Program-made: the position numbers and the translations under genes
Part shown: positions 14,199 through 63,423 of the stretch, piece by piece
Position numbering within the stretch: the first letter of the stretch is position 1
Layout: every line of letters starts with the position of its first letter
From: a virus
Length of the DNA stretch: 63,423 bases
Reading direction: 5' to 3' (one strand)
IMG/VR virus record: IMGVR_UViG_3300032665_000026
Coordinates: 1-63,423 of that record
Notes under the pieces: model-generated
Told to the model about the DNA's origin: nothing
Databases searched by the model: none
Seen by the model: only the letters and a program-made list of their open reading frames with translations

Positions 14199-14263
14199 CT
14201 CCGAACGAAGCAAATACCGTAGATGCAGCAAGCTCCTGGGAATGAGATTAAACTTCCCAACAA

Positions 14264-29793: not shown

Positions 29794-29875
29794 GCACTAT
29801 GTAGGCCCAGTCTATGATATTGGTGTATCGTCACAAGATCATAGTTATATTATTGGGAATAAAGTTGTCCACAAC
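29768..29875 (+). other. Split intein, C-terminal half (36 residues)
   Basis: It contains block F VYDIGVSSQDHSYII and block G NKVVHN with penultimate His and terminal Asn, followed by Ser as the +1 extein nucleophile. At 36 residues it equals the length of classic DnaE split-intein C halves. AGAGAGAG lies before its ATG, so it is translated independently. Confidence 0.88.
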
Positions 29876-51389: not shown

Positions 51390-51417
51390 GGGTAGTTTTT
51401 GCACATACCCAGGTGCG
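51390..51417 (-). ncRNA. Pseudoknot motif, copy 1
   Basis: On the minus strand, stem GCAC/GTGC encloses loop CTGGGTAT, then an A-rich linker and TACCC, which can pair with GGGTA of the loop. It lies between the convergent terminase and minus-operon ends and may act as a processing or 3'-end signal. On the plus strand the same DNA forms GGGTA/TACCC. Confidence 0.5.
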
Positions 51418-51429
51418 CCTTCACACGGA

Positions 51430-51624
51430 TTAATCTAATAGTGCATGAACATTGATGCACCAGTACTTATCACCAGCAAGAGCTTCCCACATGGCTAAGT
51501 TCTCGTGTTTCTTCCATTCAGCTCCAGGCACAGCAGCTTGGGCTTTATTTAAACTAGTATATAGTCCAGATATTTCCATGCTATTGTAGCTGGTATCATA
51601 GAGTAATGCATAAACTATTTTCAT
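51430..51624 (-). CDS. Hypothetical protein
   Basis: 64 residues, alpha/beta (KIVYALLYDTSYNSMEISGLYTS, then a helix). Last gene of the minus operon. No family recognised. Confidence 0.65.
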   Translation of the reverse strand: MKIVYALLYDTSYNSMEISGLYTSLNKAQAAVPGAEWKKHENLAMWEALAGDKYWCINVHALLD

Positions 51625-51632
51625 GTTTATAT

Positions 51633-52328
51633 CTATCCTTCTATGACAGTCTGATTTAAGTTGGCGTTCTTGCCACTTAGTATACCAGCATCGTACCCGT
51701 TAATAGAAGTTAACTTATCTGATTGTCTGGATTTCTTTTTACCAACACTTTGAAAATAATCTTCGATAGCATGCTGCTTATCTCGGACTACTAGCTCCAC
51801 TGATGTACCAATAATTTCATTATCCTTAATGACTTTGGCCTTAGATTCTTTGATACGTTCACTAATAGTAACAGCATACCCTGCAAAGAAACTCTTTGTC
51901 CAAGCTTTAACTGGCAAAGTATCATTATAAATAGCCTTAGCTTTTTCTAACTTAATTTTCATCTCGCTAACCATATGGGGACAAAGGATCTCGTAAAGAG
52001 TTAAGCAAAAATCAATATCGCTTTGATAACCATAGATCATGCAGTAACCATCTCCTCGCAATACCTTGCAAAAGTTATGTTTAGCAATGGAATTAAGTAG
52101 CACACTCTTATCAATAAGATATGGTTTATTTACTTCAATCCTTGATGAAGTAATGCCACCAGAACCCACATGGTTATTAAGCTGAGCTTCCTCAATCTGG
52201 TATTGCGTAATGAGCTCCTGAGCAAGTGATTGAGCTGCTGCTACTTCTCCAGGGTGATTACTACTCTCCGCTAAGCGTAAGATTTTTTGTACCCTAGAAA
52301 TAATATCAGTAAGTTTGCTTACCATCAT
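51633..52328 (-). CDS. DUF2786-like protein
   Basis: 231 residues. The N-terminal RVQKILRLAESSNHPGEVAAAQSLAQELI...YQIEEAQ matches the DUF2786 pattern (a short helical region seen in phage and bacterial proteins of unknown function). The remainder is helical and basic. Its leader contains hammerhead-like element 1 and an AAGGAAGGA site. Confidence 0.7.
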   Translation of the reverse strand: MMVSKLTDIISRVQKILRLAESSNHPGEVAAAQSLAQELITQYQIEEAQLNNHVGSGGITSSRIEVNKPYLIDKSVLLNSIAKHNFCKVLRGDGYCMIYGYQSDIDFCLTLYEILCPHMVSEMKIKLEKAKAIYNDTLPVKAWTKSFFAGYAVTISERIKESKAKVIKDNEIIGTSVELVVRDKQHAIEDYFQSVGKKKSRQSDKLTSINGYDAGILSGKNANLNQTVIEG

Positions 52329-52349
52329 TGTTCCTTCCTTGTTATAGTC

Positions 52350-52413
52350 TAGCCATCATCGGCGGAGAGACGACTAATCCTCTCCGTACACCTCCCGGTG
52401 TTTCGGCAATTCT
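52350..52413 (-). ncRNA. Hammerhead-like ribozyme candidate 1 (variant core)
   Basis: On the minus strand, directly after the stop of the 52412-52657 gene: GAAA, stem III ACACC/GGTGT with GGGA tetraloop, UA cleavage position, and stem I CGGAGAG/CTCTCCG. Then comes a CCGATGAT core where canonical would be CUGAUGA, and a possible stem II GCC/GGC. Topology is type II (stem II open). The U4 position is C and there is one extra base, so activity is uncertain. Confidence 0.5.
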
Positions 52414-52657
52414 AACTTAACAGCTTATTAATGCTTTTGATGTGGATATTCATGTTACTTATCTGCTCTTCCATAGCTTTCAAAGCACATTCGTACAGAG
52501 CTAAAGCTGCCTCATAGACTGATATGTTAAGGCTTCCCTTGTGATTGTTATAGATCTCAAAACCCTCTAACAATTCAGTGAAGCATTTACTTACTTCGTC
52601 TAATTGATTGACCATAGACTGTACTTGCGAAATTTTGTCTTCGCCAATTACTTGCAT
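52412..52657 (-). CDS. Hypothetical helical protein
   Basis: 81 residues, helical, with Leu/Glu/Met-rich amphipathic segments (VQSMVNQLDEVSKCFTELL). Possible coiled-coil oligomer. Its stop abuts hammerhead-like element 1. Confidence 0.65.
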   Translation of the reverse strand: MQVIGEDKISQVQSMVNQLDEVSKCFTELLEGFEIYNNHKGSLNISVYEAALALYECALKAMEEQISNMNIHIKSINKLLS

Positions 52658-52675
52658 TATATGCCTTACTCTTAT

Positions 52676-52969
52676 TTAATATTCTCCATCGTACTCGTAT
52701 GAGTCGATGTATTCATATGAAGCGTCAAATGTTACTTCTTCCTCCTTTCCTGTTTTAGGGCAGATATAATAGAATGTACCTTCTCCATCACCCCAGCTAC
52801 CGCTAGTTACCCAACCACCGCTATATATACTCCCACTGCGATTGTGTGAGTAACAAGTCATAGTGATGCCTTCGATACCAGTATGTGGTTCACCACAAGG
52901 GCATTCTACATCTCTAGTAGCTTCCTCTTCAATCGGTTCTGGTTCATCATCTGGTTCGTAATATCCCAT
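52676..52969 (-). CDS. Hypothetical acidic protein, zinc-like
   Basis: 97 residues, acidic N-terminus, CPCGEPH, CYSH and YICPKTG supply a possible zinc site; Tyr/Asp/Glu-rich tail. AAAGGAG precedes the ATG. Its leader carries the AGCTAACTCC repeat element. Confidence 0.65.
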   Translation of the reverse strand: MGYYEPDDEPEPIEEEATRDVECPCGEPHTGIEGITMTCYSHNRSGSIYSGGWVTSGSWGDGEGTFYYICPKTGKEEEVTFDASYEYIDSYEYDGEY

Positions 52970-52996
52970 TGTTTCTCCTTTATTTTTATTGTTATA

Positions 52997-53021
52997 TGTG
53001 AAATGCGAGGAGTTAGCTTCC
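52997..53021 (-). repeat. Intergenic repeat element, copy 1
   Basis: TGTGAAATGCGAGGAGTTAG (plus strand reading) and flanks recur at 59507-59530 with one substitution and one indel. Here it lies immediately after the stop of the 53022-53144 gene and before the leader of the next. Likely a small RNA element of the minus transcript. Confidence 0.55.
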
Positions 53022-53144
53022 TTATAGGAAGTCTACTAGATCTCCATCAAAGCCGTAGCTTTCAAGCTCACGATACATAGAAACAGGGCTAATTTTCCCA
53101 TTGTACATGTCGCTTACTAGTTCTTCTACCTGTTCATCATCCAT
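53022..53144 (-). CDS. Small acidic protein
   Basis: 40 residues (MDDEQVEELVSDMYNG...), ATG at 53144 behind AAAGGA. Helical, acidic. Sits just downstream of the best hammerhead candidate. Confidence 0.6.
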   Translation of the reverse strand: MDDEQVEELVSDMYNGKISPVSMYRELESYGFDGDLVDFL

Positions 53145-53161
53145 GATGTATCCTTTATTTA

Positions 53162-53227
53162 ACCTATCTCATCAGTCCATAGGCGGTCAACCCTATGAAT
53201 ACGCCTCCCGGCGTTTCGATTCATTAA
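53162..53227 (-). ncRNA. Hammerhead ribozyme candidate 2 (canonical core)
   Basis: Minus strand, starting at the stop codon of the upstream gene. It reads GAAA, stem III ACGCC/GGCGT with a GGGA (GNRA) tetraloop, GUA cleavage triplet, stem I TTCATAGG/CCTATGGA (8 bp, one G-U), and the complete core CUGAUGA. Stem II is GAT/ATC, extended by TTAA/TTAA across a 3x3 internal loop. All universally conserved hammerhead positions are present in type II topology. Cleavage would separate the two flanking cistrons. Confidence 0.78.
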
Positions 53228-53377
53228 TTAATACTCAGCACAGCCACAGTCATAGCCATTGGCAAAATTGCTGCAGCAGTAACTTACTTGCACTACTTGT
53301 CCAGAGGCATTGCGCATATAACCATCTGGTAATGTATCATCATATACATCTGAATCAAATTGGATTGTGTAAGTCAT
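53228..53377 (-). CDS. Small Cys-containing protein
   Basis: 49 residues: MTYTIQFDSDVYDD..., ending YCCSNFANGYDCGCAEY with five cysteines, likely metal-binding or disulfide-containing. GGAG precedes ATG 53377. A longer opposite-strand frame here is a shadow. Confidence 0.6.
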   Translation of the reverse strand: MTYTIQFDSDVYDDTLPDGYMRNASGQVVQVSYCCSNFANGYDCGCAEY

Positions 53378-53380
53378 AGC

Positions 53381-53509
53381 TTACATCTCCTTAACTATTA
53401 GTTCAATTACTCTGTCGAGAGTATCCGATTGACCGCACTTATAGGGATCATCTCCCAACTCAAACGGATAAAACTTCATGATCTTTTCGATCAGCTCATT
53501 TTTATTCAT
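53381..53509 (-). CDS. Small hypothetical protein
   Basis: 42 residues (MNKNELIEKIMKF...), helical. ATG 53509 overlaps the previous stop by four bases; its own stop is followed three bases later by the next start. Confidence 0.55.
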   Translation of the reverse strand: MNKNELIEKIMKFYPFELGDDPYKCGQSDTLDRVIELIVKEM

Positions 53510-53736
53510 GACACTTCTTTCCAGTTGTTGTTGTTTAATTGATCTAATGTGTCTTGGAACTCGTACAATATATCCCTCTCAGTCTCACCAGTTTCTGTGA
53601 AAGGATCAGCAAATACCCACTCGTTTAAGTTAGGTACAAAAACGTTCTTACCTTTATCAAAACGGGCAAGAGTTGTTTCCCAATCTATGTACCAACCTTT
53701 ACTCTCAGACCACGTTACCACGTAATGATATTCCAT
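53506..53736 (-). CDS. Hypothetical protein
   Basis: 76 residues, Trp-rich strands (VVTWSESKGWYIDWETT) then an acidic helix. Part of the tightly packed small-gene cluster. No family recognised. Confidence 0.65.
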   Translation of the reverse strand: MEYHYVVTWSESKGWYIDWETTLARFDKGKNVFVPNLNEWVFADPFTETGETERDILYEFQDTLDQLNNNNWKEVS

Positions 53737-53741
53737 TATAC

Positions 53742-53885
53742 TTATTCTCCTACTTCTGTATCTGTCAAGAAACCGTAGACACGTTTAAGATTATGGATAG
53801 CACGTTCTACGCTGCCATCTTTCTCTGAATCATTGATAGCCCATTTAGTTAGGCTAATTGCTGCCTCTAGTGTCTCTGGATCCAT
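53742..53885 (-). CDS. Small hypothetical protein
   Basis: 47 residues from ATG 53885, which overlaps the preceding stop (TAATG) and has GAGGAAGAG upstream; a longer in-frame extension to 53951 would overlap the neighbour. Helical (LEAAISLTKWAIND). Confidence 0.6.
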   Translation of the reverse strand: MDPETLEAAISLTKWAINDSEKDGSVERAIHNLKRVYGFLTDTEVGE

Positions 53886-54091
53886 TACTCTTCCTCCTTG
53901 TTTCCGGTTACTGTGTAACCTTTCTCTACTACGAACCAATCGTCGTTCCAACCGTCAATCCAGTCGGGGCTTGATTCATCTGGCTCAGGGTGGTTGACGT
54001 ACAACCAACCCCACCCTTCCTCAAAACTATCAAACTCAATACCATCAAACAGGATGTTGTTCATCCAGTCGCGGATAAGGTACTTACTCAT
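53885..54091 (-). CDS. Hypothetical Trp/Asp-rich protein
   Basis: 68 residues rich in Trp and acidic residues (EEGWGWLYVNHPEPDESSPDW...). AGGAAACAATG start. Such Trp/Asp-rich small proteins recur in this cluster (compare 54568-54759). Confidence 0.65.
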   Translation of the reverse strand: MSKYLIRDWMNNILFDGIEFDSFEEGWGWLYVNHPEPDESSPDWIDGWNDDWFVVEKGYTVTGNKEEE

Positions 54092-54100
54092 TGTTTCCTC

Positions 54101-54289
54101 CTAAGTATGTGTGCAACATGAACTACAGTCACCACAGTCACCACAACGACCATCACGACTAGCTAATTCATATTCTCTACCACAGGTGTCACACTCACCC
54201 ATCTCACTACATATGGGGCATAAACCATTGCAATGCTGACAATAGTTTTCATATACAGTAGGTCCATGATCACATGGTTCACATATCAT
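54101..54289 (-). CDS. Cys-rich zinc-finger protein
   Basis: 62 residues with 13 cysteines in CxxC pairs (CEPCDHG, CQHCNGLCPIC, CDTCGRE, CGDCGDCSSCC). Probably binds two or three zinc ions; the layout is rubredoxin/zinc-ribbon-like. Role unknown. Confidence 0.7.
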   Translation of the reverse strand: MICEPCDHGPTVYENYCQHCNGLCPICSEMGECDTCGREYELASRDGRCGDCGDCSSCCTHT

Positions 54290-54299
54290 AACTTACTCC

Positions 54300-54455
54300 T
54301 TACTTGATTGGGAACTCATTGAGGAATGTTTCAAAGACTGATGCCCGAGCTTTGTCCAGCTCATTGTTTAACTCATCGAGATCATCTTGATCTAAATCAG
54401 TGAAATCAATCTCTTCAAACCATTCTTCTAGGTTATCTTTAGTTACTTCATCCAT
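54300..54455 (-). CDS. Small acidic protein
   Basis: 51 residues (MDEVTKDNLEEWFEEIDF...), strongly acidic helical. ATG overlaps the upstream stop (TAATG). Confidence 0.6.
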   Translation of the reverse strand: MDEVTKDNLEEWFEEIDFTDLDQDDLDELNNELDKARASVFETFLNEFPIK

Positions 54456-54568
54456 TATACTCCCCAGCATTCATCACATGTACCATCATCACATTCGTCA
54501 CATGGGTGCTTTAATGGAGTATCTAACTCCATACCGCATGTTAAACAAATAGGATATTTCTTACTCAC
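54455..54568 (-). CDS. Small Cys-rich protein
   Basis: 37 residues starting at GTG 54568 (TAGTG overlap). CLTCGME and CDECDDGTCDECW form a compact four-to-six-Cys zinc site. Overlaps both neighbours. Confidence 0.55.
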   Translation of the reverse strand: MSKKYPICLTCGMELDTPLKHPCDECDDGTCDECWGV

Positions 54569-54759
54569 TATGCTTCCTCTCCTGTGTTTACGATAGCCCA
54601 ATCATCCCAATCGATGTTGTCCCACCAGAAGTCAGACTCTAATTGCTTATCTATCAGTTGCTGACCATCCAACCACTGATTTAGTTTCTCGGTTGCTTCT
54701 TCGGGGCTGCTTGCTACAACAGCAACGTCCATAGAAACTTTTGTGTAATACTCTTTCAT
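54568..54759 (-). CDS. Hypothetical protein
   Basis: 63 residues: N-terminal strand (YYTKVSMDVAVVASSPEEATEKL) typical of small phage alpha/beta proteins, then Trp/Asp-rich tail (FWWDNIDWDDW). No known family. Confidence 0.65.
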   Translation of the reverse strand: MKEYYTKVSMDVAVVASSPEEATEKLNQWLDGQQLIDKQLESDFWWDNIDWDDWAIVNTGEEA

Positions 54760-54762
54760 TGC

Positions 54763-54888
54763 TTACTCCTCTAACATATTTATTACTTCATTGAGCTGTT
54801 CACATCGATCCAACAATTTAGCAATAACTTTCATTGCTTCTGCTAAGTTAGTTGGAGTCTCGATGCCATAATCAAACAGTAACATCAT
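54763..54888 (-). CDS. Small helical protein
   Basis: 41 residues (MMLLFDYGIETPTNLAEAM...), start inside the end of the whiB-like gene (17-base overlap). Coiled-coil-like C-terminus. Confidence 0.5.
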   Translation of the reverse strand: MMLLFDYGIETPTNLAEAMKVIAKLLDRCEQLNEVINMLEE

Positions 54889-55141
54889 ACTTGCTACCTT
54901 TCTTTGGCATTCCTTTGACTGCCCTACGCTGTAGCTGTGTCATACCACCGAAGATACCAACGACCACGTTGTTATCAATGGCGTACTTTAGGCATTCCTG
55001 TTGCACTATGCAATTGTCACAGTATACCTTAGCTGCATCCATCTTTATTTTTATTTCTCTTGGTAACATTCTACCTTCAAAGAAAAACACATCAGTGTCT
55101 ACACCGATGCAATTGGCATCATCACGCCAGTTCTGATTCAT
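54872..55141 (-). CDS. Second WhiB-family iron-sulfur regulator
   Basis: 89 residues. The four cysteines appear in order: ANCIG, then CDNCIVQQEC (CxxC and C). VVVGIFGGMTQLQRR takes the place of the usual G-[VI]-W-G-G signature, with Phe replacing Trp. Shorter than the copy at 10814. WhiB proteins bind a 4Fe-4S cluster and sigma region 4. It may control this strand's transcription. Confidence 0.82.
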   Translation of the reverse strand: MNQNWRDDANCIGVDTDVFFFEGRMLPREIKIKMDAAKVYCDNCIVQQECLKYAIDNNVVVGIFGGMTQLQRRAVKGMPKKGSKYDVTV

Positions 55142-55311
55142 TTTATCTCCTCTACCTCATCTACTTCCATTTCATGACCATCGATGAGGAATGCATGGCC
55201 GTTTGCCCACACATCTTCTGCCCATGCTTCAGGAGTATAGCCCTTAGGCATGTCTTCTTCGGTGAATTCATAATAGTATTCAACCGTAGCAATGGCTGTA
55301 TACTTTTTCAT
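55138..55311 (-). CDS. Small hypothetical protein
   Basis: 57 residues (start at ATG 55311 with AAGGGGGT upstream; 55314 also possible). Starts with a strand (KKYTAIATVEYYYEF) and ends acidic. Overlaps neighbours by a few bases. Confidence 0.6.
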   Translation of the reverse strand: MKKYTAIATVEYYYEFTEEDMPKGYTPEAWAEDVWANGHAFLIDGHEMEVDEVEEIK

Positions 55312-55700
55312 CATACCCCCTTAAATAAACTGATGAATTCATCAAACGTCACTGGATCAGTTGCAGTCCACTTGATAGTTTCTTGGTAGTGTTCTATGCT
55401 GATGTCTGAGTAATCAACTTCTTTAATCACAACAGTCCTATCTACATGGTTAACTACAACAATACGCCATACGTCATCATGCTCTGATAGACCAATGCCA
55501 TAGCCAGTTTCACCCATTACTTCACCGAAAATCATCTCTGAGAAGATGATACGGTTGAGATACTCATCATCACCCCAACGACCTTTCCCACGCCCTAGAG
55601 CATTAGCTACAGTCATAGGAAGATAATCAGCACCCCAATGGGTATACAAAAACACTGAACCCTCAGCACTAACCAATTCTACCTGTCCACGGTCTCCCAT
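55311..55700 (-). CDS. Hypothetical protein
   Basis: 129 residues, mixed alpha/beta, with YTHWGADYLP, a phrase found in a widespread family of small phage proteins of unknown function. Preceded by tRNA-like element 1 and the leader AAACAAGCAAGGAG. Confidence 0.7.
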   Translation of the reverse strand: MGDRGQVELVSAEGSVFLYTHWGADYLPMTVANALGRGKGRWGDDEYLNRIIFSEMIFGEVMGETGYGIGLSEHDDVWRIVVVNHVDRTVVIKEVDYSDISIEHYQETIKWTATDPVTFDEFISLFKGV

Positions 55701-55733
55701 GTTATTCTCCTTGCTTGTTTAACCTCATTATGA

Positions 55734-55794
55734 GGAGCACCCTAAGCTAGATTCGAACTAGCATACATCACCACCAATTGGCTAGGGATACCTT
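55734..55794 (-). ncRNA. tRNA-like acceptor/T-arm element 1
   Basis: On the minus strand, two bases after the upstream stop: ATCCCTA pairs with TTAGGGT (7 bp), and inside it GCTAG/CTAGC closes a T-loop TTCGAAT. A 20-base linker with TTGGTGG, like a D-loop, replaces the D and anticodon arms. The 3' side ends GCTCC, not CCA. Conserved with element 2, with compensatory changes in both stems. May be an RNase P/Z substrate or translation-control element. Confidence 0.7.
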
Positions 55795-55796
55795 AA

Positions 55797-56345
55797 CTAC
55801 CAGCTACTTACGTAATAAACGTCGTGACCTTTATTAATTGCTTCTCGTGCTTCCAAGATAAGTTCCAGGTCTTCATTGTAGTAATATGAATCTGAATTCT
55901 CACCAAAGAAAAATCCTGAAGTTGAAGGTAATGTACCAAGGCGTACATGCATTTCTAACTGGTCCAAGTCACCAACATTTAACCTCAACGGTTGGTTGTT
56001 AAAGATTCGAGACTTGTGTAAATTAGCAGCCATCGAAGCATACTGCTCTTGTCGAATGATAGCTTTCATAGCTTCTTCAGATGTTACCATCTCAAGCATC
56101 TCTGGGGTAACTTCTGACTTATCGACTACACCAACCATGTGAGCAACAACTTCAGTAAGAAACCTTTTATCTCCTTCAAAGCCTTGCGCGTTTGCTTTGC
56201 TATTGAATAGATCTTCCATCCATCCTTCAAGGTTGGGGTGCTTACGACGATAAGCTAACTCAAATGTATCAGCATCTTCTGAGTACATAAAGTCAGTGTT
56301 ATCTTCATGACGTTCAACCATGAATACGTACTGGTCTAAACCCAT
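55797..56345 (-). CDS. Conserved phage protein
   Basis: 182 residues. Begins MGLDQYVF and contains RKHPNLEGWMEDL and, near the C-terminus, LPSTSGFFFG...YYYNEDLELILEA. The GFFFG/YY phrases define a widespread tailed-phage protein family, often annotated without a verified function. It is flanked on both sides by tRNA-like elements. Confidence 0.72.
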   Translation of the reverse strand: MGLDQYVFMVERHEDNTDFMYSEDADTFELAYRRKHPNLEGWMEDLFNSKANAQGFEGDKRFLTEVVAHMVGVVDKSEVTPEMLEMVTSEEAMKAIIRQEQYASMAANLHKSRIFNNQPLRLNVGDLDQLEMHVRLGTLPSTSGFFFGENSDSYYYNEDLELILEAREAINKGHDVYYVSSW

Positions 56346-56382
56346 AATCTTACTCCTTGTTTAACTTACTATTCCCTACTTG

Positions 56383-56440
56383 GGAGCGTCCTAAGATGGG
56401 ATCGAACCATCATACATCATCACCAGATTAGGACCACCTT
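56383..56440 (-). ncRNA. tRNA-like acceptor/T-arm element 2
   Basis: Minus strand, right after the stop of the 56442-56849 gene. GTCCTAA pairs perfectly with TTAGGAC, and inside, GATGG/CCATC closes T-loop TTCGATC. The linker TCTGGTGATGATGTAT replaces D and anticodon arms. AAGGT before and GCTCC after match element 1. Multiple stem positions covary between the two copies. Confidence 0.72.
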
Positions 56441-56441
56441 A

Positions 56442-56849
56442 CTACTCTACATCAGGGAACAACGACCTAAGGTAACTACCATCTAAGATAGAAGACGTTG
56501 CTGCTTTTGCTGCTTCAATGATTTCTGCAGCTTTTTCTAGGCTATCAATCGCTAGAGTGTTGCCTTCATCATCAATGCCACCAGTGATAATGATATCACC
56601 GACAATCATATCAGTCATGCCATACTCGTGAATCCATAGAGCAGTCCCGAATACGTTCATGCGTGGGTTCTCAACGAGCTTTCCTTCGTCATCGATCCAC
56701 AGATCAATACCGAGTGAATCGATACTTACGCATTGGATCAAGCCACCACCAGTGGCTGCTTTCAGTTGCTTGTATGAATTTGCCTCATCAAAGTCAACGA
56801 TTGCAATCTCATTGGTAGCTGCATCAGAAGTGATTGCATACTTTCCCAT
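56442..56849 (-). CDS. Hypothetical protein
   Basis: 135 residues, mixed alpha/beta, C-terminal helix EKAAEIIEAAKAATSS. No family recognised. The leader contains pseudoknot copy 2 and AAACAAGTAAGGGG. Confidence 0.68.
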   Translation of the reverse strand: MGKYAITSDAATNEIAIVDFDEANSYKQLKAATGGGLIQCVSIDSLGIDLWIDDEGKLVENPRMNVFGTALWIHEYGMTDMIVGDIIITGGIDDEGNTLAIDSLEKAAEIIEAAKAATSSILDGSYLRSLFPDVE

Positions 56850-56880
56850 TATATTCCCCTTACTTGTTTGGTTTATTTGA

Positions 56881-56910
56881 GTGGGCAGTTTAATGACATA
56901 CCCAGGTCAT
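56881..56910 (-). ncRNA. Pseudoknot motif, copy 2
   Basis: On the minus strand: stem ATGAC/GTCAT encloses loop CTGGGTAT; after linker TAAAC, TGCCCA pairs with TGGGTA of the loop (6 bp with one wobble). It lies between the stop of the 56921 gene and the leader of the next gene. Confidence 0.65.
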
Positions 56911-56920
56911 ACTAACTTAA

Positions 56921-57634
56921 CTACTTAGGGAAAACAATTTCAATTTGCTTACCATTAATAGTAATGAACTGCGGTGCAGCAGGTACATCTGGTTCTACTG
57001 GTGCTACTGATACAGGTTCTAACACTGGATTAATTGCTTCAATAACGTCTCCGATACTATCAAACATCATACTAAAGCCTGGAATATCTGCTTTGTCTCC
57101 ACCGAAATCCCATGCGCTTGTGTCAATGGTGAATGAGGTATCAATCATTGGTTCGGGTTCTACTTCTGCTACAACAGTAGTTGGTGCATCTTCAGTAACA
57201 CTGGAGGTAGTTTCAACCGTTGTAGGAATAGTAGAATATACCATACCTAGATCTGACTTCTCTTTCCAAACACCATCGATTGAGATGCAAGGATTCAAGA
57301 CAATGCCAGTCTTACCAACCTCGTACGATAGACCAAGCATACGGTAGAGAAAGTACTTACGCGCAATATCTCGATTAGTCTCAGTCTGTGCCATTTGTAG
57401 CATCGTAGCGATATTTGCCTTAGCATCTTGGTGAGTTGCATAGAACATACGCCCAATGATAGTACGTGCTCGTCCAGTTTCTTCATCGTTCTTAGAACAA
57501 CGAATATCTACTCGGGAGAAACTTGTTGGTGTCTCCTTAGTAACAGTGAACGCTAGGTCAACTATGTCGCGAGTACGACTAGAATTCCAGCACTTACCAT
57601 CTGGTTTTGGTACCCAGATAAGTTCGTTAGTCAT
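56921..57634 (-). CDS. Hypothetical protein
   Basis: 237 residues. The first 120 residues are alpha/beta with a Cys pair; the C-terminal half is a disordered Val/Thr/Glu/Pro-rich tail ending FITINGKQIEIVFPK. Possibly a DNA-binding or host-takeover protein. No family recognised. Confidence 0.65.
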   Translation of the reverse strand: MTNELIWVPKPDGKCWNSSRTRDIVDLAFTVTKETPTSFSRVDIRCSKNDEETGRARTIIGRMFYATHQDAKANIATMLQMAQTETNRDIARKYFLYRMLGLSYEVGKTGIVLNPCISIDGVWKEKSDLGMVYSTIPTTVETTSSVTEDAPTTVVAEVEPEPMIDTSFTIDTSAWDFGGDKADIPGFSMMFDSIGDVIEAINPVLEPVSVAPVEPDVPAAPQFITINGKQIEIVFPK

Positions 57635-57667
57635 CTTACTAGTTCCTTCCTTACTTGTTTATTTGAC

Positions 57668-57732
57668 CTCTTCATTCAGCCGGTGGTGGTCAATCCACCG
57701 AGAGTCCTCCCGGACTTTCTGTTCTTATTACT
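57668..57732 (-). ncRNA. Hammerhead-like ribozyme candidate 3
   Basis: Minus strand after the stop of the 57733-57915 gene: GAAA, stem III AGTCC/GGACT with GGGA loop, UC cleavage position, stem I TCGGTGG/CCACCGG. The loop ATTGACCA shares TTGACC with candidate 2. Then CUGAAUGA, the core with one inserted A. No clear stem II pairing, so this may be degraded. Confidence 0.45.
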
Positions 57733-57915
57733 TTAATCTTTAACTCTTGGTGTGCAAAGGCCATCCATAATGAGTCCTTCTGCCATGCGACCGTAATGAC
57801 CTTGAAGACTCCAAGCCATTCCAGTGTCAATCAAGTACTGAAACAGTTCAATTGTTTCCTCTCCATTCAAACTGCCCTGTTCGTAGTCAATAATATTAGA
57901 TAGTGTATCGTACAT
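57733..57915 (-). CDS. Conserved small phage protein
   Basis: 60 residues. IIDYEQGSLNGEETIELFQYLIDTGMAWSLQGHYGRMA is a highly recurrent phrase in tailed-phage genomes, function unknown. AAAGGAGAAT precedes the ATG. Confidence 0.75.
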   Translation of the reverse strand: MYDTLSNIIDYEQGSLNGEETIELFQYLIDTGMAWSLQGHYGRMAEGLIMDGLCTPRVKD

Positions 57916-57939
57916 AATTCTCCTTTTTATTTTATTGTT

Positions 57940-58362
57940 TTACAACGGGTAACCAGAAATACTGCGGATATAACTACTAGGGCCAACAGGCTCTGGTGCT
58001 TTAGCGCTTTCATAACAGCTTAATTGCTCAATGAACCAAGCTTCTGCTTCAACTGATCTTTTACCATACAGCAATCTTGCACTGAATAATAGAGCATCAA
58101 CAAAGTTTTTAGCAAGATAAGAGCTTTGAAACTCTCGTACAAATAATACTTTATTTGCTACTTTCTTACCATCATCCCGCTTACGAACGATAAGCCTTGC
58201 ATTCTTATTAACAATGCCGTATTGAGAACCAGCTTCTAACGTAAAAGATAGATCTACATTATGATTGTATAGCCACCATTTTCTTTCAGGATGTGTTTTG
58301 GCAGTCCAAACAACATCATCATCATTCTTCCTTAGACGCCAATGCAATTCACGACTAATCAT
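57940..58362 (-). CDS. Hypothetical protein
   Basis: 140 residues, strand-rich N-terminus (RELHWRLRKNDDDVVW) and Lys/Arg-rich middle. Overlaps the 58359 gene by four bases. Function unknown. Confidence 0.65.
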   Translation of the reverse strand: MISRELHWRLRKNDDDVVWTAKTHPERKWWLYNHNVDLSFTLEAGSQYGIVNKNARLIVRKRDDGKKVANKVLFVREFQSSYLAKNFVDALLFSARLLYGKRSVEAEAWFIEQLSCYESAKAPEPVGPSSYIRSISGYPL

Positions 58363-58580
58363 GATTCTCCTTGCTTAACAAACTTATTAACAAGTTTGCC
58401 CATGTCTTCTGAGCTTGGAACCTCTTCCGAACTAACATCGAATACAGCTGCCTTTTGACTCTTGGCAAACTCTTCGACCATTAGCTTGAAATAAGCACCG
58501 AATGATTCCATTTGATCAGGATCATCGAACTCAACTTCGATAGTAAGGTTAGGACCTACTTGAGTACCTTTAATCTGCAT
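58359..58580 (-). CDS. Small hypothetical protein
   Basis: 73 residues (MQIKGTQVGPNLTIEVEF...), strand then helices; ends acidic. AAGGAG before ATG. First gene after the large non-coding region, with pseudoknot copy 3 in its leader. Confidence 0.65.
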   Translation of the reverse strand: MQIKGTQVGPNLTIEVEFDDPDQMESFGAYFKLMVEEFAKSQKAAVFDVSSEEVPSSEDMGKLVNKFVKQGES

Positions 58581-58607
58581 AGCTATTCTCCTTGTTTAGT
58601 TATTTAT

Positions 58608-58637
58608 GTGGGCACTTTATCGTCATACCCAGGACGC
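58608..58637 (-). ncRNA. Pseudoknot motif, copy 3
   Basis: Minus strand: GCGTC/GACG stem, loop CTGGGTAT identical to the other copies, linker ATAAAG, then TGCCCA pairing with TGGGTA. Stem bases differ from copy 2 with pairing kept, which argues for selection on structure. Confidence 0.65.
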
Positions 58638-58675
58638 CATACACTCGTGTAACACACAGGTAGTAGGCTAACCTA

Positions 58676-58693
58676 CATGAGCTGCTCCTCATG
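58676..58693 (-). repeat. Hairpin module A, copy 1
   Basis: Minus strand ACTCAG followed by CATGAG-GAGCAG-CTCATG. Related modules (CTCAG or CTCAC, hairpin with GGGAAG-type loop) occur near 58859, 59139 and 59297. In this and the next copy a pseudoknot motif follows downstream. Confidence 0.5.
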
Positions 58694-58745
58694 CTGAGTC
58701 TGTGTTGCATCACATCGCGTCGCGGTCCATGCGATACACAAGAAA

Positions 58746-58776
58746 GGGGGCAGTTTTTCTGTCATACCCAGGACGC
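58746..58776 (-). ncRNA. Pseudoknot motif, copy 4
   Basis: Minus strand: GTC/GAC short stem, loop CTGGGTAT, linker AGAAAAAC, then TGCCC pairing with GGGTA of the loop. Lies inside the large non-coding region. Confidence 0.55.
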
Positions 58777-58858
58777 AACGATTACTCTACCTTCCAACCG
58801 ATAAGCTGGCTTCTTACGCTCCGCCGCGTGTGTTCTTTCCGGCATCCACTACTTCCGA

Positions 58859-58876
58859 TATGAGCTTCCCCTCATA
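58859..58876 (-). repeat. Hairpin module A, copy 2
   Basis: Minus strand ACTCAG then TATGAG-GGGAAG-CTCATA. Same order as copy 1; loop purine-rich. It precedes pseudoknot copy 4, so the pair hairpin-plus-pseudoknot is duplicated. Confidence 0.5.
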
Positions 58877-59473
58877 CTGAGTGTGTTATCAAACTAATCG
58901 TGTCTCTGTCCCTGTCATCAACTTCATGAGCTTGTCCTAACAACCATAGCTTAATTACAACAGGGCCTATGTACACAACGAAGCATACATAGGCTTGAGC
59001 TTTATTCCAGACGCTGTGCTCAAAGCGCCCCTAGTTCCTTTGTATCATACCAACTAGGAAGTATTATTGAGCTAACGGATCAAACCGGCTACATTGAGGC
59101 AGTAGCTTCCCTTCTATTAAGTAGGCTTCTGATTACCTCCATACGCTTCCCCGTATGGTGAGGATGGCAGTTGCAGATGCCAGCTGGGACGGTTTATACT
59201 CACCGTGAGTAGCACCCATACCAACCATGACAGCTGGTATGGGTTCATCCGTTAAGAGTGGATGGGTTGGCTAGGTTTAAGGAGAGCCTACGTTCCTGTG
59301 CAAACTTCCCCCTGCACTGAGAGGTTTGTTTGGTAGTACCCGTCTACCAGCTTTCAGTTCTTTAACTGAATAAGCCATGAAAGCAACCGCCTCTCCTACT
59401 CACGGCATAGCCCAGGCCAGGGTTTTAATGACAACCCTCCACATCATGATGCTTTTAACGTGATCCAAACACG

Positions 59474-59531
59474 TCTATTGAGCTAACCCCACACACACAC
59501 GTTGTTTGTGAAATGCGTGGAGTTAGCTCCT
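59474..59531 (-). repeat. GAGCTAAC hairpin with intergenic repeat copy 2
   Basis: GAGCTAAC-CCCAC pairs with GTGG-A-GTTAGCTC across a loop containing TTTGTGAAATGCG. Its 3' side (59507-59530) is the second copy of the element at 52997. TTGAGCTAAC also occurs at 59068. Confidence 0.5.
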
Positions 59532-59667
59532 TAGAGCTGATAGCTTCCTCAAGAAACCCAGAGGAGCTATGGAGATGCCACAACAAGAAGGAAAAGCACT
59601 CTCCATAACCCCTCTCAATTGCTTGAGCGAAGTATATGTCGAGCTTATCATCCTTGCCGACGTTATG

Positions 59668-59988
59668 CTATGATCCCAGAAGAACCTTAGCTTTTGCTAG
59701 GGCAGTTTCGAATCCAGCAATACTATCGAGAGCATAGACGCCACTGAGCTTGAGAGCGATCTCAATTTCCTCAACGACATCGACAAGTCCTTTAGCTACC
59801 GTTTGGTAGATGATGACTTTGTTCTCGAGAGCAGCGATCTGTTCTTTGGACAGATCAACCAGTTTGTCGACATTGATGAGAAGATCGACAAGTATCAGGG
59901 AATATTCCCTTAGCTTATCGATGTCCTCAGCAACGTTGATCTTGGATTGAATCTCTTCAACCCGTGCCTGGATACCAGTAGTGTTCAT
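59668..59988 (-). CDS. Hypothetical coiled-coil protein
   Basis: 106 residues from ATG 59988 (AAGGAG upstream). Helical throughout: RVEEIQSKINVAEDIDKLREYS then LSKEQIAALENKVI, heptad-like. Possibly oligomeric; unknown role. Confidence 0.65.
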   Translation of the reverse strand: MNTTGIQARVEEIQSKINVAEDIDKLREYSLILVDLLINVDKLVDLSKEQIAALENKVIIYQTVAKGLVDVVEEIEIALKLSGVYALDSIAGFETALAKAKVLLGS

Positions 59989-59998
59989 CGCTTTCTCC

Positions 59999-60358
59999 TT
60001 ATGCCCAGTGGTCCTGGTGACCACAATTCTTGTTGGTACCATCGCACTCAGGGTGATGAGCACTGTGCCATTGGAATGGCGCACCCAAAACATTGACAGC
60101 TTCTTTCTGCAAGATGTCATAGAGTTCATTGAGGTGGTCAATCGTTAGCTTAAGCCCAAGAGGGAACATGCGACTAGCATTTTCCAACTCATTGACGCTG
60201 CTATCCTCATTCATCAAGATCTGAGCAATGATTGAGAAAGGTGAAATGATCTCACCCATCTTACCACCCCAGTCCTTGATGCCCTCAAGGAATTCAACGT
60301 GAGCAATACGTGCCTCAGCTGCTTCATCAAGTTTCAAGTCGAGATTGAACTCTTCCAT
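59999..60358 (-). CDS. Hypothetical protein
   Basis: 119 residues from ATG 60358 (CAAGGAGCAAC). Acidic helices and a C-terminal His/Cys-rich tail (HSAHHPECDGTNKNCGHQDH) that may bind metal. Confidence 0.65.
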   Translation of the reverse strand: MEEFNLDLKLDEAAEARIAHVEFLEGIKDWGGKMGEIISPFSIIAQILMNEDSSVNELENASRMFPLGLKLTIDHLNELYDILQKEAVNVLGAPFQWHSAHHPECDGTNKNCGHQDHWA

Positions 60359-60424
60359 TGTTGCTCCTTGTTTATTTGTTACAGTACCAATCTGGTACAC
60401 TGTGTATCATAAGACACACATGGC

Positions 60425-60457
60425 ACTCAGGTGTAACCATATAGACCACACCTGAGT
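60425..60457 (-). other. 10-bp inverted repeat in leader/terminator position
   Basis: ACTCAGGTGT / ACACCTGAGT, perfect 10-bp stem with a 13-base loop, 33 bases beyond the stop of the VWA gene. A second hairpin TTGAGT/ACTCAA precedes it on the minus strand and GTACC/GGTAC follows in the next leader. May terminate or process between cistrons. Confidence 0.55.
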
Positions 60458-60490
60458 TGTTGAGTTATAAGTTACTCAATGAACTTGGGG

Positions 60491-61984
60491 CTAAAGCAAA
60501 CCAAGCAAAGCGTCACGGATAGGACCAGCAGGCTTATTGATAAGCTTGCCAGCCTTGAACCCCTTGACTGCTTCTTCAACACTCGGAATCATAATGATCC
60601 GGTGCTTCTTGACCAGTTGAGCACACTGCTTAGTTAATTCATTGTTGCGTCCATCAGTCTTGCTGGTGACGATACCATCACATACCCAGATAAGATCCTC
60701 ACCGGGATGACGTTGATTGATAGCCCACGTAAGAGCAGGACCATCAACACCGTTACCCATCCCACCTACAGATGGGATCTCAGCTACACGCCAACCACGC
60801 CTAGCAAAGATCCAAGCATTGGGCTGATCATCACCACAGTGACTGTACGCCATGATGACAGCAGCTGGTGCTGCCTCAACGATGGACTCGATGTCAGATT
60901 GAGTCAGGCTCATAGAACCTGAGATATCAATCAACACCACGCCACCACGTACCCTCTTCTTGTGAGTGAAGATTCGTCGCTCAGGGTCAGTGTAAAGTCG
61001 GCTGATGTTGCCGATGCTACGACCGAACTGAGCAGGCTTACGCTTGCGCTTCATGTACCCTTCTACCTCAACAGATAGCACGAGAGAATCATCGATGTTA
61101 AGCTTGGCAAACATGCCACGCTCATCGGTGGGGAACTCGTAATCATCAGGTAGCTCATCTTTGAGTGGAGTTCTAAAGGGAGATAACTTACCCTCTTCAC
61201 TCGGCTCAGTGGATTCACCATACTCTGAAGCACGCTTATCCTCTTCCTCGTCACGCTCACGCTGGATAGTTTCAGGAGCTTTCATGCCTGTTGAAGCATA
61301 CTGTGAGATCTCAGCAGCAACACGGATTGTGTTGTTGAAGCCACGAGGGCCAGTAACACCACCACCAAAATCGTATGGGGAAGTGTCACCGAGATCCATG
61401 GGATCACCCAACAGAACCTTATCGAGCCTCTTGCTGAGCTTACGCAACCGCTCAGACCATTCAGGGTTCACAGACCTAACGCCACTCGCGAACGAGTCAA
61501 ACGATTTGGTACCGTGATGCTCCACAGTGAACTTGAGTGCCTCATCCCAGTGCCTAGACGACTTGCCTGTAGCAAGCATCACTCCACGCTTCTTCTCATT
61601 GCCAAGTATCTCGTTAGAATCAACGCCCTTGAGCTCTAAGAATGGCTTGGCGACAGCATTGACTCGGGCTTGTTCTGCAACACGAAGCATAGCATCAGTA
61701 ATACCATGCGACTTGTAAGTAATACCACCCTGCTTGTAAATGTTGTCATCCATTGGAGAGATACGAGCTTCAATTAGCTTGCGCACCTTCAACTGCTGTG
61801 ACTGACTGTCCCCCGTGAGAGGGACAGCCAATACACTCGCAGCGAAGTCTACACCAGCGCCGTACTCACCCACTGTTGTAACAACTTCCCAGTTGTTACC
61901 AGTAGGCGCATCATCACGGTATGAAACGATCGCACCAACTAGTGGCTTGACCCCTTCTTCCTCGATAGCGTAGTCTTCACTCAT
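60491..61984 (-). CDS. VWA-domain protein (MoxR partner)
   Basis: 497 residues. The C-terminal 150 residues are a von Willebrand A domain with the MIDAS motif DISGSMS at 353-359 and later metal-loop residues in GGMGNGVDGPAL and VCDGIV. The N-terminal part is charged with an acidic linker (ERDEEEDKRASEYGES) as in CoxE/YehP-type VWA proteins. It pairs with the MoxR ATPase whose stop overlaps its start. Together they likely remodel or insert cofactors into a target complex. Confidence 0.8.
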   Translation of the reverse strand: MSEDYAIEEEGVKPLVGAIVSYRDDAPTGNNWEVVTTVGEYGAGVDFAASVLAVPLTGDSQSQQLKVRKLIEARISPMDDNIYKQGGITYKSHGITDAMLRVAEQARVNAVAKPFLELKGVDSNEILGNEKKRGVMLATGKSSRHWDEALKFTVEHHGTKSFDSFASGVRSVNPEWSERLRKLSKRLDKVLLGDPMDLGDTSPYDFGGGVTGPRGFNNTIRVAAEISQYASTGMKAPETIQRERDEEEDKRASEYGESTEPSEEGKLSPFRTPLKDELPDDYEFPTDERGMFAKLNIDDSLVLSVEVEGYMKRKRKPAQFGRSIGNISRLYTDPERRIFTHKKRVRGGVVLIDISGSMSLTQSDIESIVEAAPAAVIMAYSHCGDDQPNAWIFARRGWRVAEIPSVGGMGNGVDGPALTWAINQRHPGEDLIWVCDGIVTSKTDGRNNELTKQCAQLVKKHRIIMIPSVEEAVKGFKAGKLINKPAGPIRDALLGLL

Positions 61985-62730
61985 TACAGTGAAGCCGTCG
62001 TGCTCAAGGTACCGAGACGAATGACATCGATGATAGAGTCAGCAAGCTTACCGAAGACAAGCTTTGCAGCACGCTCCGTGGAGAACGCTGGGTTCTGACG
62101 CAGAAGCTGGAACTCCTTCCAAGCACGCAATGAAGCACGCTCGCCGTTCTGACCAGCAACAATAGCTGCAGCAAGCATGCGCAACTCTGGTGGCAATGCA
62201 GCGACCAACGCAGCCGGGTGGGCAGCGTCAATCTTGATTGCAACCGGGAAGCGGTCACGCAATGGAGCAGCGATCATGTTGGGATCCGTGAAGTTCGTGG
62301 TCATGATAGCCGAGAAGTTCTCATTAGGACGAATAGTCTCGCCCGTGTAAGGATTCTTCCAGACCGATGACTCCGCACTGTCAAGGAACGCCATCAGCGT
62401 CGACTCAACGTCACCGGAAGCACGGTTGATCTCGTCAATAACTGCACGAGCACCGGACTTCCAAGCACGAGCCAATGCACCCTCGACGAAGCCGAAACCA
62501 CCGCTAGGCGTAGGCAGCATTGCACCTACGATGTCGCCTGTGGTCATGTCCTCGGAGCAGATGAGTCGCTCAGACCCAGCGTCACCGACGCCGAGAGTGA
62601 GAGCCGAGTAGGTCTTGCCGGTCCCAGGAGGGCCGTACAGGATGACCTTCTTGACACCTGCAGCGATTACGTCCTCCAAGTCGATGAAGCACTGGGGAAC
62701 GGGAATGCCTTCGTATGAAGTTTCGCTCAT
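61984..62730 (-). CDS. MoxR-like AAA+ ATPase
   Basis: 248 residues: Walker A GPPGTGKT at 33-40, Walker B AVIDEINR, sensor AIMTTNFTDP, arginine-finger region LRDRFPVAI. A typical MoxR sequence with a short lid domain. The region looks more GC-rich than the neighbouring small genes. A chaperone or assembly role with the downstream VWA protein is inferred. Confidence 0.85.
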   Translation of the reverse strand: MSETSYEGIPVPQCFIDLEDVIAAGVKKVILYGPPGTGKTYSALTLGVGDAGSERLICSEDMTTGDIVGAMLPTPSGGFGFVEGALARAWKSGARAVIDEINRASGDVESTLMAFLDSAESSVWKNPYTGETIRPNENFSAIMTTNFTDPNMIAAPLRDRFPVAIKIDAAHPAALVAALPPELRMLAAAIVAGQNGERASLRAWKEFQLLRQNPAFSTERAAKLVFGKLADSIIDVIRLGTLSTTASL

Positions 62731-62785
62731 AATAGTTTTCCTTCTTGTTTGTTTGTTGTTTTACGGTGCTTGTTATCACCGGACA

Positions 62786-62803
62786 CATACCGGTTATGGT
62801 ATG
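62786..62803 (-). other. Hairpin between tRNA and MoxR gene
   Basis: CATACC / GGTATG, six base pairs around a six-base loop, six bases after the 3' end of the tRNA on the minus strand. It may define the tRNA 3' processing boundary or the leader of the MoxR gene. Confidence 0.4.
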
Positions 62804-62808
62804 TATCG

Positions 62809-62878
62809 CACTGCAGATGGGAATCGAACCCACAATCTTCTAGCTGAACTAGACGCTCTACCATTGAGCCACTGCAGT
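62809..62878 (-). tRNA. tRNA with UCA anticodon (opal-reading; Trp-like)
   Basis: Minus strand cloverleaf, 70 bases. Acceptor ACTGCAG/CTGCAGT pairs fully, D-stem GCTC/GAGC, T-arm GTGGG/CCCAT with TTCGATT loop. The anticodon loop GTTCAGC gives anticodon TCA, which pairs with UGA. A1-U72 and discriminator G73 match bacterial tRNA-Trp identity. The anticodon stem is only 4 bp and the loop could fold as 5 bases. CCA not encoded. Confidence 0.6.
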
Positions 62879-62891
62879 AACCACTTACCTA

Positions 62892-63338
62892 CTAGTAACG
62901 CTTGTTGTCATAAACAAGGCGAGAGGTATAGGTTTCTGTCGCATGAGTGAAAGTGATGACCGATGCTTTAAACTGCGCAAGACTAGCACCATTACCAAGC
63001 ACCAACAACGTTGTTGAAGCAAGGCTTGACAGAGCAACAGCCAATACATTGGTGTCACTGTTCAGTGTGTAGTCAGGAGAGTTAGAGTGACGGTTGAGCA
63101 CAATAGCATCGTTAGCCAGTGCATGAGCAGCGGCTCGTGATGCAGAAAGATTGTTGTTGTTAAGCCCAATCTCCAGTGCTGAATAGTCCTTAAGCATCTT
63201 TGACACGATCGGTTGTGTCGCATGCTTCCAAGCATTGTACTTACTCAGTGGGCTAGCACTGACAGCAACTGCAGGGAGCATGAGTGTTGTAACCACAACC
63301 ACACTCGCAACCTTCTTAGTTAGACTAATTAGATTCAT
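62892..63338 (-). CDS. Secreted hypothetical protein
   Basis: 148 residues from the second of two adjacent ATGs (AAGGAG spacing favours 63338; 63341 is possible). Residues 1-27 form a signal peptide (LTKKVASVVVVTTLMLPAVAVSASP). The mature part is Ala/Ser/Asn-rich helical. No enzymatic motif. It may act on or in the host envelope. Confidence 0.65.
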   Translation of the reverse strand: MNLISLTKKVASVVVVTTLMLPAVAVSASPLSKYNAWKHATQPIVSKMLKDYSALEIGLNNNNLSASRAAAHALANDAIVLNRHSNSPDYTLNSDTNVLAVALSSLASTTLLVLGNGASLAQFKASVITFTHATETYTSRLVYDNKRY

Positions 63339-63376
63339 CATTTCTCCTTGTTTGTTTGGAATAACAGGTGTTACTC

Positions 63377-63418
63377 CGATGGGTACCCAAGCCTGTCGTC
63401 CGACTTGGATACCCATCG
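63377..63418 (-). other. Long hairpin in leader of secreted-protein gene
   Basis: CGATGGGTA pairs with TACCCATCG, then CCAAG with CTTGG (one internal mismatch), 14 bp in total with a 12-base loop. It lies about 37 bases upstream of the start codon, with AAACAAACAAGGAG between. Another structured leader of the minus operon. Confidence 0.55.
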
Positions 63419-63423
63419 CAGCA

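Follow-up and report, generated by a model that had tools for sequence, protein, structure and literature searches.

A phage operon probably punctuated by exchangeable RNA devices at its gene junctions

The viral record IMGVR_UViG_3300032665_000026 of IMG/VR (63,423 bases, analysed as a whole and referred to below as the window) carries a minus-strand operon at 51390–63423 in which structured RNAs occupy the spacers, mostly starting 4–18 nucleotides (nt) past a stop codon. The devices comprise three type II hammerheads, one tRNA body, two mini-tRNAs, four pseudoknots, strong hairpins and a modular RNA of about 1 kb. Across related viruses, the same orthologous junction can hold devices of unrelated kinds, and the operon is likely to be punctuated by RNA, with exchangeable devices dividing one long transcript at gene junctions. 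Nearly all of the elements named in an initial annotation of the window (pseudoknots, hammerheads, tRNA-like elements, hairpins, a repeat and a giant RNA) are present on the minus strand, and the tight gene packing it described between them is confirmed, the gaps at other junctions being mostly −17 to +24 nt. Its statement that each element begins just past a stop codon holds for most devices, with the exception of the pseudoknots at 58774 and 58636, which come after noncoding RNA.

A search with RecA recovered 28 related viral contigs, 13 of which have the VWA gene of the operon and nine have DNA resembling the giant RNA; a search for the VWA gene in viral contigs and named phages returned none. 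The 13 operon regions compared (L190–L202) include the near-duplicates L192/L193, L195/L196 and L200–L202, and represent about ten lineages counting the window. Gene clusters and devices were mapped jointly and tabulated per junction. The flanking proteins of the relatives are 28–91% identical to those of the window, so the compared junctions are orthologous places. Before the AAA-ATPase gene (c2), a tRNA body is found in the window, L190, L191 and L197, a mini-tRNA in L194 and L195, and a hammerhead in L200–L202; at the c14–c2 junction, L190 and L191 have the tRNA body and L195 the mini-tRNA. Between the 237-aa gene (c0b) and the DUF3846 gene (c10) lies a pseudoknot in the window, L190, L191 and L192, and a mini-tRNA in L194 and L195. 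The spacer before c0b holds a hammerhead in the window and L192–L195 and a mini-tRNA in L190, while the VWA gene is followed by strong hairpins in most regions (L190–L195) and by a hammerhead in L200–L202. A mini-tRNA precedes c8 in seven, and a hammerhead precedes c5 in the window, L191, L194, L195 and L200 by descriptor, and in L190 by eye.

At the level of sequence, these tables demonstrate that devices are exchangeable at orthologous junctions. Because unrelated devices replace one another in the same place, a shared task at message ends is suggested as the best explanation, and the exchange amounts to a natural experiment on shared function. The earlier proposal that different RNA devices serve one common boundary purpose is well supported by this mutual replacement and by their similar distances from stop codons.

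In the scheme proposed here, whose cleavage, end protection and effect on expression are predictions, one long minus-strand transcript would be divided by devices lying just past stop codons, at approximately the leading edge of a terminating ribosome. Self-cleavage of the type II hammerheads would give an upstream mRNA that ends in hairpin III and a downstream mRNA that begins with hairpin I. Host RNase P (perhaps RNase Z too) would cleave the tRNA bodies and mini-tRNAs, and both hammerhead and RNase P cuts would leave structured ends. The pseudoknots (P1 / CU / P2 / 1 nt / P1′ / AAAC / P2′) would remain uncut and cap 3′ ends against 3′ exonucleases, those of mRNAs and of noncoding RNAs alike. 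This suggests that some phages split a long operon transcript with exchangeable RNA parts, not with promoters and terminators. The initial annotation went further, to gene-by-gene control, which exceeds the available evidence; as a whole its interpretation is partly supported.

The hammerhead with a canonical core (CTGATGA/GAAA) lies at 53159–53220 on the minus strand (hammerhead 53217) and resembles RF02276, with a score below the gathering threshold. It reads GAAA, a 4-base-pair (bp) stem III with a GGGA loop, a GTA triplet, an 8-bp stem I, CTGATGA and a 3-bp stem II, with a 6-bp loop–tail pseudoknot; the core (CUGAUGA and GAAA) and the NUH site (GTA) agree fully with the consensus, and cleavage is predicted between 53200 and 53199. 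The other two, on the same strand, have variant cores. Hammerhead 52404 (52345–52408), before the DUF2786 gene, has CCGATGA and a GAAA at 52404, with predicted cleavage between 52387 and 52386. Hammerhead 57719 (57663–57722; CTGAATGA) is without a proper stem II, has a TTGACC/GGTCAA loop–tail pseudoknot and is predicted to be cleaved between 57702 and 57701; its homologue in L192 has the canonical CTGATGA. In all three, stem I is 7–8 bp, stem III 4 bp plus an A-U pair, and the loop–tail pairing 5–7 bp.

A permissive hammerhead descriptor matched 17 operon spacers of the window and its relatives and none of 760 shuffled spacers. The matches include TTGATAA, in which U3 and A8 occur together, and a GATAA form recurs in L194–L196; covariation of U3 and A8 in the core is reported as natural (PMC3088659). 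The GAAA lies 5–18 nt past the stop codon. Perreault et al. (2011) found tandem type II hammerheads in phage and prophage genomes and proposed that they cut long transcripts (PMC3088659). The window's elements resemble these in their type II architecture, loop I–tail pseudoknot, location between phage genes and proposed cutting into shorter mRNAs, but differ in being one of several device classes in a single operon, and in being replaced by tRNA bodies or mini-tRNAs at orthologous junctions. With the core, NUH site and loop–tail pseudoknot conserved, self-cleavage is plausible.

The tRNA body (62810–62878, minus strand) begins about 13 nt past the stop at 62892, and has acceptor, D and T arms, a short anticodon arm and no CCA; two hairpins then extend to 62763. 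It had been annotated as a tRNA, which is correct for the body but not for its 5-nt anticodon loop (TTCAG), and the tRNA-SeC(UCA) call made by ARAGORN is misleading. In the fuller tRNA bodies before the AAA gene, the anticodon-arm loops are 5, 3, 4 and 5 nt long (window, L190, L191 and L197, respectively). Since none of these four phages has a normal 7-nt loop, decoding appears not to be the conserved trait, and the bodies should not decode normally. A decoding tRNA would have an anticodon stem of 5 bp with a loop of 7 nt; these four bodies do not, and in the mini-tRNAs the arm is absent. A suppressor or selenocysteine tRNA was considered and ruled out, since the relatives all lack a normal anticodon loop.

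The two mini-tRNAs, also on the minus strand, lack D and anticodon arms altogether. The first (56388–56434) consists of a 7-bp acceptor, a linker and a T-arm, with a small hairpin following to 56373; the second (55739–55788) is followed by a small hairpin to 55722, and a mini-tRNA is present at the orthologous junction in L190, L192–L195 and L200. Twenty distinct tRNA elements of these operons have a 7-bp acceptor and a T-arm with a TTC[A/G]A loop, and all 20 have a purine at position 73 and C at 74. Most are mini-tRNAs, in which a linker of 10–19 nt replaces the D and anticodon arms. The acceptor/T-stem helix, the T-loop, R73 and C74 are features of RNase P substrates, and cutting of tRNA bodies and mini-tRNAs by this enzyme is a plausible prediction. 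The elements lie 6–33 nt past the stop codon (mode 6–7). A mini-tRNA descriptor gave 25 matches in 2.7 Mb of strand against two in shuffled sequence, some of the matches being parts of ordinary tRNAs; a tRNA-like element before c2 in L192 was not caught by it. Single-sequence folding of the window's mini-tRNAs is not significant (z −1.0 and −0.6), and their support is comparative.

The L195 mini-tRNA before c2 shares with the window's tRNA body the acceptor (ACTGCAG/CTGCAGT) and all but one base of the T-arm. Because it keeps that acceptor and nearly the whole T-arm, the decoding part was probably lost from the tRNA body at this junction. The mini-tRNAs would then be tRNAs that shed the decoding arm and retained the portion read by RNase P. 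Punctuation of polycistronic transcripts by tRNAs is classic. As in mitochondrial tRNA punctuation, tRNA shapes stand between genes and are presumably cut by RNase P; unlike there, the anticodon arms are non-decoding or missing, down to acceptor plus T-arm, and the phage operon mixes them with ribozymes. Spacers at 1286, 1860, 2392 and 7014 of L199 have minihelices of about 9–12 bp past stop codons (loops such as AGTCAAAT); these may represent tRNA bodies at a yet more advanced stage of reduction.

The pseudoknot is a compact H-type of 27 nt. Its consensus is a P1 of 3–6 bp closed by C-G, CU, a P2 of 5–6 bp ending in A-U, a single A or U, P1′, an L3 loop ending in AAAC, and P2′. Four matches lie on the minus strand of the operon, where the pattern is expected by chance 0.01 times in the window. 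One (51390–51416; GCAC/GTGC and GGGTA/TACCC) closes the operon and faces a convergent gene, one (56883–56910) separates the 237-aa gene from the DUF3846 gene, and one (58748–58774) forms the 3′ end of the main body of the giant RNA. The fourth (58610–58636) comes after the small RNA that follows the giant RNA, and is itself followed by an A-rich leader and a ribosome-binding site. A variant with GGGAA/TTCCC lies on the plus strand at about 14233–14260, between tRNA-Lys and tRNA-Pro.

P2 varies widely (GGGTA/TRCCC, GAGCA/TGCTC, AAGCA/TGCTT, AGGCA/TGCCT, TGGTA/TGCCA, GGCCA/TGGCC, GGACA/TGTCC and others). In a count of 38 sequences, chosen partly for pairing, 97.1% of cells were paired against 74.9% after shuffling, with 75 double changes. 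In tests free of selection for pairing, P1 positions 2–4 at sites anchored on the loop and P2 pair in 100, 99 and 75% of cases (53, 58 and 39% when permuted), and 134 hold-out sites anchored on the same two parts only gave 100, 99 and 84% (46, 41 and 44%). In a small unbiased test of P2, 15 of 22 non-GGGTA anchors paired fully, compared with 29% after permutation. Where L1 was left unconstrained it was CU in 82 of 82 sites. A strict descriptor gave 139 matches against two in shuffled and none in reversed sequence; a relaxed version was discarded as too loose (490 matches against 350 shuffled). The window-derived pattern occurs in at least 119 stretches of viral contigs and a second variant in at least 120, while a somewhat stricter pattern occurs in 26 stretches in the 257 Gb of all bacterial and archaeal genomes.

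The pseudoknot is typically 4–10 nt past a stop codon across sites, and 4–13 nt in the window and its relatives, with one outlier at 36. Among named phages it directly follows annotated stops in those of Rhodococcus, Microbacterium, Arthrobacter, Lentibacter/Roseobacter, cyanobacteria and Rhizobium, and lies 24 nt past one in a microvirus (a single-stranded DNA virus); its carriers include Rhodococcus phage Trina, Microbacterium phage Count, Arthrobacter phage Amigo and cyanophage S-RIM4. Of 144 sites, 82 are within 25 nt after an open reading frame (ORF) of at least 60 codons and four are inside ORFs; the next feature is an ORF start at 59 and a tRNA gene at 14, and 12 face a convergent ORF. 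Nine loci in the neighbourhood of an hsp20-like gene (L012, L014, L028, L037, L050, L066, L090, L108 and L117) appear from their sequence to encode, downstream of that gene, a small RNA about 100 nt long, with a promoter-like sequence before it and the pseudoknot at its end. Two unrelated small-RNA bodies there share this end, and in most cases another promoter-like sequence follows directly after the pseudoknot. The pseudoknot also forms the end of the giant RNA, both in the window and in those relatives that have the giant RNA.

The pseudoknot thus goes with the upstream feature, whatever follows, and this association irrespective of the downstream feature is the main argument suggesting a role at 3′ ends. 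The cutting that had been proposed for the whole transcript is not indicated for this element, which has no cutting signature; its contexts are consistent with a barrier to 3′ exonucleases, and it probably protects 3′ ends. Whether it is a general 3′-end cap, a widespread and unnamed one that is interchangeable with ribozymes and mini-tRNAs in a modular punctuation code without promoters or terminators, is a more tentative proposition, to which we give slightly less than even weight. If true, the pseudoknot, ribozymes and mini-tRNAs would let the phage set its message ends without promoters or terminators.

Several other RNAs accompany or resemble the pseudoknot. A second compact type (TATGGGTTCCACC...AACGGGCCCA) recurs past stop codons in L190–L193 and L197 (after c6, and between c0b and c10 in L197). 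A recurrent small hairpin (such as GCAGTGACGGCTGCCATAGATAGTC) precedes the pseudoknot in contigs of bacterial metagenome-assembled genomes (L128, L130, L132, L133, L139 and L145–L148) from Omnitrophota, Deltaproteobacteria and others, and the two together are possibly a distinct larger RNA with the same fold. A Pistol ribozyme (44.3 bits, above the cutoff) lies at 6338–6415 of L019, about 60 nt upstream of a pseudoknot.

The main rival to transcript division is translational insulation, because the common spacing of 4–10 nt matches the edge of a terminating ribosome. The structures would then control termination, release or re-initiation at that edge, with any cutting incidental. This spacing is uniform for three unrelated device types, and an ORF start often comes next (59 of the 144 pseudoknots). 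The short L1 and A-rich L3 also recall mechanically strong viral H-type pseudoknots. Insulation, however, does not need self-cleaving ribozymes or RNase P substrates, and the pseudoknots also close noncoding RNAs and stand at convergent gene ends; we regard it as unlikely, although it is the strongest of the alternatives.

Less probable still is that RNase P acts on the pseudoknot too, which would make this enzyme the agent of both non-hammerhead classes. H-type pseudoknots are cleaved by RNase P in vitro, where the tRNA-like end of turnip yellow mosaic virus (TYMV) is a substrate; the T2/T4 gene 32 pseudoknot is a claimed one (PMC12710915), and mini-tRNAs do replace pseudoknots at the same junction. 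Published cleavage, however, needs a 3′ RCCA (PMC12710915), whereas in the phage pseudoknot P2′ is followed by A at 49 of 82 sites and the bases after that are variable.

Separate transcription units, with promoters and terminators in the spacers and a terminator-like pseudoknot, are very unlikely. Promoter-like sequences do follow some pseudoknots in other phages, but a U-tract lies within 14 nt of only 30 of 144 pseudoknots, and hammerheads and tRNA bodies occupy equivalent slots without the form of a terminator. The scan of the operon found 25 promoter-like sites where 23.2 were expected from shuffling, which, as a weak test, also fits the initial annotation's claim of few promoters. A ligand-sensing riboswitch for the downstream gene, to which the invariant CU, A-U and AAAC within 27 nt and the similar layout of preQ1-I riboswitches would point, is the least likely reading, since the downstream gene is not constant (many sites are followed by tRNA genes, convergent genes or promoter-like sequences) and no Rfam riboswitch reached gathering score in 20 loci.

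Some observations weigh against division of the transcript by these devices. The stretch 53221–53158 scores 29.3 bits against RF02276 (E 0.00012, 111-nt query), and because this is below the gathering threshold of 37, the window's elements are hammerhead-like by structure and not certified members of the family; a 12-kb scan of the operon gave no Rfam hammerhead match. Two of the three cores are non-consensus and may be slow: the change at hammerhead 57719 is an insertion after A6, and such an insertion is reported to have had low activity (PMC3088659). There is no CCA after the tRNA bodies. Some orthologous spacers are without any recognised device; spacers with structures outside the classified set include those with the second pseudoknot type and the L199 minihelices. 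Proximity to stop codons is also expected from compact genomes, and the feature downstream of the pseudoknot is often a ribosome-binding site and start codon, leaving room for a translational role.

Parts of this picture have precedents: hammerheads were proposed in 2011 to cut phage transcripts, punctuation by tRNAs is long established, and RNase P is known to act on pseudoknots in vitro. The mixture of devices, their replacement of one another, the mini-tRNAs without an anticodon and the compact pseudoknot family appear to be new; searches of Rfam, and of a literature library without preprints and most subscription papers, did not turn them up. For the pseudoknot, no Rfam family covers it at gathering score in the 20 loci except for one unsure wcaG match, and it was not found in the literature by motif letters or topic, with partial coverage, so that an earlier description is possible. 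The wcaG RNA was rejected as its identity: its only overlap is with the pseudoknot of L127, where the alignment is of low confidence, and it looks like a separate RNA that follows. Luteovirus frameshift pseudoknots of the H-type have a short L1, a one-nucleotide junction and an A-rich L3, all shared by the phage pseudoknot. Unlike these, and unlike the TYMV and T2/T4 gene 32 pseudoknots, it has an invariant CU, terminal A-U and AAAC, lies past stop codons, and accompanies the ends of genes and noncoding RNAs. It adds a compact family with strong covariation, carried by phages across several phyla, a single-stranded DNA virus among them, in which to ask whether mRNA pseudoknots stop exonucleases or undergo RNase P cutting in cells, described as an open question (PMC12710915).

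The giant modular noncoding RNA (58640–59667, minus strand) is conserved in place in nine relatives. A conserved 5′ hairpin and a part of variable length are followed by repeated hairpin modules of the form CTCA-[7-bp stem]-GGGAAG-AGG, with 11 distinct stems, all fully paired, and the CTCA flank, which was not selected for, in nearly all. It gave no match in Rfam, GOLLD and ROOL included, and looks like a new large RNA. GOLLD and ROOL are large phage RNAs (PMC12286853), and the giant RNA resembles them as a large structured phage noncoding RNA but differs in its GGGAAG-loop modules and terminal pseudoknot. A conserved loop of the giant RNA (59600–59575) has perfect 14-nt complementarity to the leader of the AAA gene (62749–62736, both minus strand) in the window; trans-pairing is not supported, the match in the leaders of that gene in relatives being at most 9 nt.

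The remaining operon elements are hairpins and a repeat, all on the minus strand. A long hairpin of about 17 bp (63365–63423) lies upstream of the ORF ending at 62892 (z −8.1; none of 200 shuffles as stable), and similar hairpins are found upstream of a gene in L190 and L191. The spacer after the VWA gene (60395–60490) is an inverted repeat with multiple hairpins (z −4.3). The repeat element (GCTAACTCCTCGCATTTCACA; 52991–53021) has a second copy inside the giant RNA, as part of an 86% match with a stretch there. Similar sequence lies upstream of c12 in L190, L191 and L197, and an exact search for the element in viral contigs found none.

Elsewhere, the window encodes a T4-like baseplate wedge gene, a DnaB-like helicase and a DnaE-like polymerase, the last about 33% identical to those of Rhodococcus E3/Finch and Mycobacterium phages. 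No relative at the DNA level was found in a collection of named phages; the three genes relate the window distantly to actinobacterial phages. Its DnaE-like polymerase is divided between two plus-strand ORFs (27486–28889 and 29768–32065) with a NUMOD3-motif gene (28858–29793) between them, an arrangement consistent with a homing-endonuclease insertion.

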